From Polaromonas sp. YR568 (lineage in GTDB: Bacteria > Pseudomonadota > Gammaproteobacteria > Burkholderiales > Burkholderiaceae_C): DNA of 64,000 nucleotides. The DNA lies in the NCBI RefSeq assembly GCF_900116715.1, contig NZ_FPBM01000003.1, positions 456,522-520,521 of the forward strand, written 5' to 3'. Position numbers and translations under genes: made by a program. The notes under the pieces were generated by a model. The model worked only from the letters and a program-made list of their open reading frames with translations, did not search any database and was not told the DNA's origin. How positions within the stretch are numbered: position 1 is the stretch's first letter; each line of letters opens with the position of its first letter. Of the stretch, positions 58,921-61,289 are shown piece by piece.

Positions 58921-59341
58921 GACGGAAGGTAGACCTCTCAAACAAGCCGGGAAGGTCTTAATTATGAAGGGCTCCTCCAGCCGTCGACCCGATTGCACTT
59001 TCGGCAGTGCACCGTCAACGTTTATTCTTGCCGCCTATGAGTTCTCCTCCAAGCCAATAAACCTGGCGGCTACGCTGCGCGGCATGAAATGCCGCGCAAA
59101 TCCGTCACTCAACAGTGACGGATTTCGCCAGGTTTCGGGAGGGCTTGTGTGGCCACGTAACTTCGCTGCGCGAAGTAAGTGTCCACCAAACCCCGCAGCG
59201 CTATTGCGCACCGTGACTGTCATTCGACAGTCACAGACTTTGCCAAGTTACGGGTGGGGAGGGTTTGTGTGGCCGCATAACTTCGCTTCGCGAAGTGAGC
59301 GTCCACCAAACCTCGCAGTGCGCTGACGCGCACCGTGACTG
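58921..59341. other. 421-bp region holding fossil copies of the glmS 3' end
   Basis: No gene. From 59076 on it is packed with hairpins and two extra copies of the glmS tail (see repeat entry). The part 58921-59075 shows nothing recognisable. The nearest genes on both sides are on the minus strand, so glmS transcripts read into the repeats. Confidence 0.8.
59076..59098. terminator. strong hairpin at the far end of the glmS-tail repeats
   Basis: TGCGCGGCAT (59076-59085) and ATGCCGCGCA (59089-59098) form a perfect 10-bp stem with a 3-nt loop, directly beyond the last glmS-tail copy in the direction of glmS transcription. There is no T-tract, but it is the best candidate for the glmS transcript end. 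Confidence 0.5.
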
Positions 59342-59374
59342 TCATTCGACAGTCACGCTCTTTGCTAGATTGCG
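59105..59374 (-). repeat. three copies of the glmS C-terminal coding end
   Basis: Reading the minus strand, [10 protein letters not shown] plus TGA stop occurs at the true glmS end (59342-59374), at 59220-59252 and at 59105-59137. Between the copies are about 80-90 bp with a shared CTTCGC-GCGAAG hairpin, CCACACAA and GGTTTGGTGGAC elements. In the distal copy nine of ten codons differ from glmS, all synonymously (including AGC to TCC for Ser). In the middle copy four differ, all synonymously. Confidence 0.9.
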
Positions 59375-61192
59375 GGGTTTGTCCACATCCGTCCCCCGCG
59401 CCACAGCCGTGTGATACGCCAGCAACTGCAGCGGCACCACATGCAGCAGCGGGCTGAGTGCGCCGTAGTGTTCAGGCATGCGGATCACATGCAAACCCTC
59501 GCCGCTTTCGATGTGGCTGTCGGCGTCGGCCAGTACGTAGAGGACGCCGCCGCGGGCGCGGACTTCCTGCATATTGCTTTTGAGTTTTTCGAGCAGTGCG
59601 TCGTTGGGGGCGACGGTGACGACGGGCATTTCGCTGGTGACGAGGGCCAGGGGGCCGTGTTTGAGTTCACCTGCGGGGTAAGCCTCTGCGTGGATGTAGC
59701 TGATCTCTTTGAGCTTGAGGGCGCCTTCGAGGGCGATGGGGTAATGCAGGCCGCGGCCGAGGAAAAGTGCGTTTTCCATCTTGGCGAAGTCTTCGGCCCA
59801 GCTGATGACTTGCGGCTCCAGCGCCAGCACGGCTTGCAGGGCTGCGGGCAGGTGGCGCATGGCTTTGAGGTGGCCAGCCTCTTCTTCGTCTGTGAGCTTG
59901 CCTTTGCTTTGGGCCAGGGCTAGGGTGAGCAGGAAGAGGCCTGCGAGTTGGGTGGTGAAGGCCTTGGTGGATGCAACGCCAATCTCCACGCCCGCGCGCG
60001 TGATGTAGGCGAGCTTGCATTCGCGCACCATGGCGGACGTTGACACGTTGCAGATGGTGAGGGTTTGCGTCATGCCCAGGCTTTGCGCGTGGCGCAGCGC
60101 GGCCAGGGTGTCGGCCGTCTCACCGCTTTGGGTGATGGTGACGACGAGCGACTTGGGGTTGGGCACCGAGGTGCGGTAGCGGTATTCGCTGGCCACTTCG
60201 ACTTGTGTGGGGATGCCGGCAATCGACTCGAGCCAGTACTTGGCGGCGCAGCCGCTGTAGTAGCTGGTGCCGCAGGCCAGGATGAGGACGGAGTCGATGT
60301 CTTTGAAGACGCGGAAGGCCTCGTCGCCAAACAGCTCGGGGACTATGCCTTCAACACCTTCGAGCGTGTCGGCAATGGCGCGCGGCTGCTCAAAAATTTC
60401 TTTTTGCATGTAGTGGCGGTAGGGGCCCAGCTCGGCCGCGCCGCTGTGGGCCTGCACGGTTTTGACGTCGCGCTGCGCGGGCTTGCCGTCTTTGCCGACG
60501 ATCCAGTATTTACCAAGCTGGATGTCGACCATGTCGCCTTCTTCAAGGTAGACGATCTGGTCGGTCACGCCGGCCAGCGCCATCGCGTCGCTGGCGAGGA
60601 AGTTCTCGGTCTTGTCTTTGCCCACACCCAGAATCAGTGGCGAGCCGGCGCGCGCGCCGACGACGCGGTGCGGCTCGTCTTTGCAGAAGGCGGCAATCGC
60701 ATAAGCGCCGTGCAGTTGCGCCACGGTGGCTTTCAGGGCTTCAAACAAATCGCCGTCGTAGAGGCTGTCGAGCAGGTGCACGATGACTTCGGTGTCGGTC
60801 TGGCTGTCGAAGACATAACCCTTGGCCTTCAGGCCGGCGCGCAGCTCTTCGTAGTTTTCGATGATGCCGTTGTGCACCAGCGCAACCTTGCCGGGCTTGG
60901 CTTGCGATGCGGCGCCGCTGCCGTGGCTGAAGTGCGGGTGGGCGTTGTGCACGGCCGGCGCGCCGTGGGTGGCCCAGCGGGTGTGGGCAATGCCGGTGCC
61001 GCCTTCGAGCTTGTCGGTGGCGACCTGCTCTTGCAGCTCGGCCACGCGCGAGGTGCTGCGTGCGCGCTTGAGGCCACCGGCATACACCGCGACGCCGCAG
61101 GAGTCATAACCGCGGTACTCCAGCCGCTGCAGGCCCTGCACCAGGATGGGAACGATATTTCGTGTCGAAACGGAAGCAACGATGCCGCACAT
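59342..61192 (-). CDS. glmS: glutamine-fructose-6-phosphate aminotransferase
   Basis: 616 residues from ATG 61192 (AGGAGACC upstream), so that Cys2 becomes the N-terminal nucleophile (MCGIVASVS). Glutaminase domain: [15 protein letters not shown] and [17 protein letters not shown]. Two SIS domains: [38 protein letters not shown] and [41 protein letters not shown]. It makes glucosamine-6-phosphate for the cell wall. The C-terminus [13 protein letters not shown] is normal, but its coding end is repeated downstream. Confidence 0.97.
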
Positions 61193-61289
61193 AGAAAGGT
61201 CTCCTGAAATCAATGAATTGACGCAATGGAGGGATGCTACGTGCTTGCTATTTTGTTATGTGATTGATTTTTGTTTGATTTTGGAATTT

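Follow-up and report, generated by a model that had tools for sequence, protein, structure and literature searches.

Integrases that act at the 3′ ends of genes restore the gene end with synonymous recoding; e14 and phage 21, which integrate in icd, restore its 3′ end. The attC sites of integrons are folded hairpins with bulges and an unpaired centre, and their outer boxes have the consensus RYYYAAC..GTTRRRY.

The other systems compared here are taken from four papers (PMC10293859, PMC2918618, PMC8266576 and PMC5934647). In Tn7, the final 36 bp of glmS are bound by TnsD, and the transposon inserts about 25 bp further on (PMC2918618). In IS608, of the IS200/IS605 group, a guide lying immediately 5′ to a hairpin base-pairs with the cleavage or target site, and altering the guide retargets the element (PMC5934647). 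REPs are described as mostly intergenic, with copy numbers from the hundreds into the thousands and a leading tetranucleotide that is most commonly GTAG (PMC8266576).

Here we describe an array of glmS ends in a 64,000-nucleotide stretch of Polaromonas sp. YR568 DNA (the window, meaning the whole stretch analysed) and the family of small folded units to which it belongs. We consider these units likely to be mobile elements without an ORF that insert at the end of a conserved gene, supply it with a new end and displace the previous end downstream, and assign this reading a probability of roughly 0.57. That the units move is likely; mobility and mechanism alike are argued from sequence comparison. 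In the portions of the open-access literature searched, we found no description of such units.

Recoded copies of the glmS end

The end of glmS is present three times on the minus strand of the window, as a sequence-only reading of this DNA had reported, and each copy encodes the same ten residues followed by a stop, matching at 11 of 11 positions (Table 1). The gene was identified from the ORF at 59345-61213, with the model starting at ORF residue 9; the start at 61192 is the methionine of MCGIV, chosen by eye. Codon comparison bore out the reported divergence: the near copy (tail 2) differs from the working end in 4 codons and 7 nt, the far copy (tail 3) in 9 codons and 10 nt, and all of the changes are synonymous. 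The same reading had argued that random decay would not keep the peptide. When equal numbers of changes were placed at random in the tail, the peptide was kept in none of 20,000 trials per copy. Plain tandem duplication followed by drift was rejected for the window's copies, because the peptide survives changes in 4 and 9 codons.

Table 1. Features of the glmS array, with positions in the window
Feature	Position	Strand	Evidence
glmS (glutamine--fructose-6-phosphate transaminase), with working tail 1	59342..61192	-	NCBIfam TIGR01135, 788.9 bits (cut-off 418)
Tail 1, real glmS end	59342..59374	-	peptide match 11/11
Unit 1, type A, 122 bp	59253..59374	-	R1, 133 bits
Core hairpin of unit 1 and guide-like arm	59260..59315	-	R3, 71.7 bits, E 3.4e-18
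Tail 2, displaced glmS end	59220..59252	-	peptide match 11/11; 4 synonymous codon differences
Unit 2, type A, 115 bp	59138..59252	-	R1, 119.3 bits
Core hairpin of unit 2	59140..59195	-	R3, 68.9 bits
Tail 3, displaced glmS end	59105..59137	-	peptide match 11/11; 9 synonymous codon differences
Unit 3, type B, broken within core hairpin	59038..59137	-	R2, 79 bits over 59019-59137

The C terminus of GlmS is near-invariant across organisms, with DNA variation mostly at wobble positions (PMC2918618), so intact recoded tails are expected only if each was, or stood ready as, a working end. The claim that each copy once ended a working gene is upheld, and the tails have the appearance of arriving DNA that took the place of older ones. 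Beyond the window, 22 of 44 tail pairs from 26 arrays have no non-synonymous codon, one of these 22 being identical, with the pairs pre-selected at 8 or more of 11 matches; the unbiased synonymous test is that of the window's own copies.

Anatomy and folding of the units

Each tail heads a structured unit that consists of the gene tail, a partly complementary arm and a core hairpin of about 50 bp, and is followed by the displaced older tail. Unit 1, for example, runs from tail 1 through a stop-codon hairpin, the arm, the core hairpin and about 8 extra bases to the next tail. Two types were distinguished, measuring 113-122 bp (type A) and 135-142 bp (type B) in the first ten genomes examined. 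In both the stop codon sits inside a hairpin, and type B forms a closed cloverleaf whose outer stem is the start of its own tail paired with the arm. The core hairpin is imperfect, with an unpaired centre (TCA/TTA or TCA/TGA). The larger folded units of the window, of 122 bp, 115 bp and a third broken in its core, had been missed by the sequence-only reading. The break in unit 3 was located by visual comparison with complete type B units. Breakage of the core where the inner stem begins, or close to that point, can affect the last unit of an array, as seen at sucD (L267), in the window's unit 3 and at L013 and L005.

Folded as single-stranded DNA, the two whole units of the window gave z scores of -8.0 and -5.9, and none of 200 shuffles folded as well. 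Changes on both sides of a pair that kept the pairing occurred at least once at 6 of 32 pairs in type A (8 sequences) and at 12 of 35 pairs in type B (9 sequences). Alignment A1 had 96.5% of its cells paired and 16 two-sided-change cells against 5.4 in shuffled versions, and alignment A2 had 92.4% paired and 25 against 7.8. The number of paired cells, the number of two-sided-change cells and the covariation score lay above all 500 shuffles and all slid versions in both alignments, in tests in which the structure was derived from the same sequences. The pair-type covariation count was not above shuffles, the observed value being reached by 80 of 500 in A1 and 354 of 500 in A2. Rfam gave no gathering-level match in 15 unit loci. 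A weak Rfam match to freshwater-2 lies over unit 3 (59034-59120, minus strand; 22.3 bits, cut-off 49.9, E 0.43) and is probably a chance one.

Arrays in related genomes

In a set of 61 genomes, made up of the window's own and 60 relatives, a 421-bp query matched 40, in most cases at the end of glmS. At least two tails were present in 10 of the 30 loci returned and one tail in 19, and one locus was interrupted by a contig end; the 24 loci from the same genus, the window's included, comprise 10 arrays, 13 single-tail loci and one that is cut off. Thus the array is not unchanged in all relatives. Both orders, A then B and B then A, are found among arrays. Fourteen named loci came from one type A pattern, which missed other unit types there.

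In each of three pairs of relatives, one genome has an additional unit between the glmS body and the tail. G017 carries B then A where its nearest relative, BC025, carries A (glmS third positions 82.5% the same); G033 carries A′, A and B where G026 carries A and B, the extra A unit being at the front (78.3%); and G026 in turn has A and B where G004 has B (87.9%). In the first two pairs the displaced tail is the relative's working tail at 33 of 33 bases, and at the G017/BC025 boundary, A|CAAACC, the displaced tail retains the old CAAACCG. In the third, the displaced B tail of G026, like that of G033, has one A-like and one B half, the mosaic expected from recombination within the tail. Comparison of the window with G159, its nearest relative, shows no gain, because the proximal A unit is common to both and the difference lies further out. 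Identical downstream sequence follows the last tail in G004, G026 and G033, so the last tail is probably the oldest and units probably entered between it and the gene body.

The units were more alike than the glmS third positions in 69 of 82 same-type pairs, the most extreme being A23 and BC025 (unit A 94.5% identical, glmS third positions 63.2%); structural constraint can explain part of this likeness between distant species. Right junctions vary, with 0 to about 25 odd bases before the displaced tail, and the first codons of that tail are changed or lost in G286, G132, G201, G136 and L061. Exact or near-exact tandem copies in G286, at argF and at sucD show that plain duplication also happens, and tandem duplication is a possible origin of these particular copies. 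No insertion event was caught in the act among the relatives compared.

Two loci have unusual layouts. The four glmS tails of L072 (G095:C6) belong to two alternating unit kinds, with tails 1 and 3 identical and tails 2 and 4 identical, which suggests duplication of a pair. At about 20, 28 and 97 kb downstream of glmS, Polaromonas JS666 (G032, C3:56474-154325; L037-L039) has incomplete units and a degenerate tail, all in the same orientation; the layout looks as though a single array had been split by the entry of several islands.

Tn7-like insertions in the arrays

G033 contains a 12 kb segment with inverted ends (TATTCCGCGCAATTAAAGTCGTAAACA..) and a 5-bp duplication (GCACT), situated 25 nt after the stop codon of displaced tail 2 and inside unit A; the three of its ORFs that were scanned include no transposase gene. 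Three other loci have similar ends at 22-27 nt beyond a tail. Displaced tails can therefore serve as attTn7, and nothing suggests that Tn7 made them. The sequence-only reading had cited Tn7 as its precedent, which is relevant to the later use of tails as targets and not to their origin, the G033 insertion being inside a unit. It had also looked to islands, or integrase or Tn7-like genes, between the copies: the Tn7-like insertion in G033 answers to this, but no integrase island was present in the loci read, in which islands are partly annotated.

In several single-tail relatives (L008, L009, L010, L014, L015, L016, L024 and L025), Tn7-like end repeats of the AATTAAAGTCGTAAACA, CAATAAAGTCTG and ACAAAGTCCGTCGG kinds, sorted by eye, occur shortly after glmS. 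The site after glmS seems to be crowded with several Tn7-like families.

The core hairpin at other genes

We searched for the core with a model, R3, built from a hand-picked alignment of 16 hairpins (7 from glmS, 5 from acs, 2 from metK and 2 dispersed); the 44 arms and 95 cores discussed below were found with this model, and cores were re-scored with a matrix built from the same alignment. R3 matched 65 of 150 genomes of the window's family and 16 of 250 genomes of the order, 13 of the 16 being outside the family. The window's genome has five sites (seven matches, two of them on the opposite strand), and nine genomes had 1-13 matches each, many at coding ends.

The targets named by NCBIfam are acs, metK, ornithine carbamoyltransferase (argF), proB, sucD and thiolase; aceE, truncated by the locus, and an alaX-like gene fall below the NCBIfam cut-off. 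A second gene end lies behind the core at glmS, acs, metK, argF, sucD, the alaX-like gene and the thiolase, and also at a small unnamed ORF, judged by eye to lie before murA, whose second end is an identical copy. The sequence-only reading had treated the repeats as a matter of glmS, a restriction that these other genes, including the 5′ end of the thiolase gene, do not allow. A core and an arm, with no second gene end detected, are present at aceE, at proB and at a gene named by eye as pilT-like. The second end keeps 12 of 12 amino acids with 5 nt changes at one acs locus (L077) and 10 of 10 with 9 at another (L253), 10 of 10 with 4 at metK (L252) and 12 of 12 with 5 at thiolase (L269), and at sucD it has 1 difference in 75 nt. 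Overall, 50 of 95 distinct cores are flanked by a 12-codon repeat (9 or more of 12), compared with 3 of 95 random positions; 15 of the 50 repeats have no base difference, and the other 45 cores have no repeated gene end.

The thiolase unit, a single case with a weak core (27.7 bits, E 2.2e-4), lies at the gene's 5′ end in the opposite orientation. The old start, MSDPIIIASVARTPMGGF, is upstream and the running gene begins MQDPIVIASVARTPMGGF, each preceded by a purine-rich stretch resembling a ribosome-binding site. The unit looks as if it supplies a new start codon, the first codons and an apparent ribosome-binding site.

A dispersed intergenic repeat also has the core hairpin (GCTCACTTCGCGnAGCGAAGTTA or close to it). 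It occurs in the window's own genome at G000:C17:22203-22253, C14:159529-159578 and C2:96-145 (L046, L047 and L048) and also at L139, L150, L260 and L261, within a larger structure (CCGG..CCGG, AAAGAAAG.. hairpins, then GGCGACCC). No gene tail was seen in this repeat, the C17, C14 and C2 hairpins with the core motif included; a dispersed REP family was rejected as a full explanation. The glmS repeats are not members of a dispersed family unrelated to the gene, although their core hairpin has dispersed cousins.

Complementarity of the arm to its own gene end

We took the arm as the 19 bases up to the core and scored it by the longest exact run complementary to its own gene end. This run was 8 nt or longer in 24 of 44 units (mean longest run 8.7), a count that retains several units with a doubtful upstream ORF. 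Against the ends of the other target genes the mean was 5.1, with 3.0% reaching 8 nt, and for shuffled arms it was 5.0, with 1.9%. The remaining 20 arms have no complementary run of 8 nt, and in three units the runs extend to 16-18 nt. The arm lies where the guides of IS200/IS605 elements lie, 5′ of the hairpin base, and by analogy it could splint the 3′ end of the core to the displaced end.

Search for a mobilising enzyme and for carriers

No mobilising gene was found: in the 150 family genomes, neither Y1 transposase, considered with the alternatives below, nor reverse transcriptase or integron integrase was significantly associated with the units. RVT_1 was present in 31 of 65 unit-bearing and 33 of 85 other genomes (p 0.32), and an integron integrase over the cut-off in 32 of 65 and 30 of 85 (p 0.10), the window's genome having none. 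RAYT, reverse transcriptase and integron integrase were tested as candidate mobilisers by this co-occurrence, and none reached significance. Y1_Tnp occurs in 112 of the 150 family genomes, mostly as a single copy, and many of these genes are RAYT-like by size.

Viral contigs had no exact match to the type A tail-hairpin pattern or to the core pattern, and the window's array gave no BLAST match in phages. With that array as query against plasmids, the matches listed (20 of 28 records) covered only its first sixth, the glmS end. The acs array matched six Variovorax/Paraburkholderia replicons; the R3 core was absent from both of the two examined, and so we claim no plasmid-borne unit.

Proposed mechanism

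We propose that the units are mobilised in trans, probably as a folded single strand, and that the arm acts as a guide that would splint the 3′ end of the core (..CCA) onto the target (..A|CAAACC.. in glmS). With such a guide, lineages of units would become specialised to one gene each. Every insertion would have to restore the target gene, so that moving units would be selected for the peptide and free at synonymous sites, which would explain the synonymous divergence. Tn7-like transposons would later use the displaced tails as attTn7.

A broader proposal, which we advance tentatively and hold to be somewhat doubtful, is that the units form a novel class of guide-programmed mobile DNA without ORFs in betaproteobacteria. 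Each would combine a core hairpin of about 50 bp, a variable guide arm of some 8-18 nt and a spare gene end, home to the ends of conserved and often essential genes, recode them synonymously and stack in arrays, with lineages differing only in the gene addressed, gene starts included. If true, conserved gene ends in a large bacterial family are repeatedly rewritten by elements far below the size of a transposase gene; these elements find their targets by base pairing, as a natural programmable inserter that repairs its own damage. They would also give rise to unusual codon choices at the ends of genes, and attTn7 could be multiplied within a genome, providing fresh landing sites for Tn7-like transposons.

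Alternative explanations

The main and strongest rival, which we judge unlikely, dispenses with dedicated mobility. In this view the units are structured 3′ ends that protect or terminate the mRNA and that spread through natural transformation: incoming DNA recombines homologously in the gene body at one edge and is joined through short homology in the tail at the other, and tandem duplication acts locally as well. The mosaic displaced tails of G026 and G033 fit such recombination, as do the tandem copies in G286, argF and sucD, the strong and conserved folding of the units and the variable right junctions, which transformation with one-sided homology would give too. Recombination alone, however, leaves several things unexplained: many unrelated genes have one core in common, with arms complementary to the particular gene; an extra unit precedes an unchanged 33-nt tail in G017 relative to BC025 and in G033 relative to G026; and one unit, in the opposite orientation, rebuilds the 5′ end of a gene. 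The conserved hairpin and gene-specific arms at many gene ends would need explaining even if recombination had spread them.

Two further accounts invoke known kinds of mobile DNA. The sequence-only reading had integrase islands, each with its own glmS tail, integrating serially and then being lost, so that the tails are fossils of attachment sites. Integrases at gene 3′ ends do restore those ends with synonymous recoding, and Tn7-like islands do occur in the arrays. Of that reading we keep the displacement of tails by incoming elements that carry a glmS tail, but not the large islands: the inserted thing appears to be the unit itself, which is found with the same size and architecture in numerous species and at further genes. 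Adjacent glmS tails lie 109-179 bp apart in the arrays examined elsewhere; the 12 kb gap in G033, the single island measured, is Tn7-like and within a unit; no integrase-bearing island separates the copies in the loci read (islands partly annotated); and the phage and viral collections gave no match with the queries used. We regard serial integrase islands as the least probable of the accounts considered. The observation behind them is real and more general than first stated, and the islands-and-fossils interpretation is replaced by a family of small units that carry a gene end. It is also improbable that these bacteria use their RAYT-like Y1 transposase to move the units as an atypical kind of REP. 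A hairpin with a 5′ guide resembles REP and IS200 substrates (PMC8266576), and a Y1_Tnp gene is present in all nine unit-bearing genomes first tested and in 51 of 65 overall. It is, however, equally common in genomes without units (61 of 85, p 0.45) and missing from 14 of the 65 with them, and among 12 Y1 loci with 1.5 kb flanks R3 gave one match, of 10.6 bits (E 0.66). The units, moreover, are low in copy number, with five sites in the window's genome, and carry coding sequence.

Comparison with known systems

The units share an address with Tn7, and in four loci a tail is followed at 22-27 nt by Tn7-like ends. To our knowledge, however, Tn7 does not carry or duplicate a glmS tail, and the units occur at other genes too. 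Inspection by eye of the unit ends, for Tn7 remnants, revealed no terminal repeats with a 5-bp target duplication. As with integrases and prophages that restore 3′ ends, the incoming DNA brings a synonymous gene end and displaces the old one, but the units have neither integrase nor cargo, measure about 110-180 bp at glmS and use one architecture for many genes.

Like REPs and REPINs, the units are short hairpin repeats in genomes that mostly have a Y1 transposase gene. They differ from REP/RAYT systems in being few per genome, in overlapping coding ends and in carrying replacement codons, and the 16-sequence core alignment (A3) has no conserved GTAG or CGTC tetranucleotide before the hairpin. 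Integron cassettes and attC sites offer another likeness, in that small units stand in a row with the apparently newest beside a fixed gene and have a bulged hairpin with an unpaired centre; the outer arms of the units, by contrast, are GGTTT..AAACC at glmS or, by eye, gene-specific, and not RYYYAAC..GTTRRRY.

Elements of the IS200/IS605 group have tetranucleotide guides, whereas the complementary runs of the units reach 16-18 nt in three cases. The units also lack tnpA and tnpB, are too short for a Y1 gene, have no Y1 linkage that we could find, and carry part of a host gene. The likeness to IS200/IS605 lies in the arm, which occupies the same place as the IS guide and matches the target over a run of 8 nt or more in 24 of 44 units (the other 20 have no such run), against 1.9-3.0% in controls.
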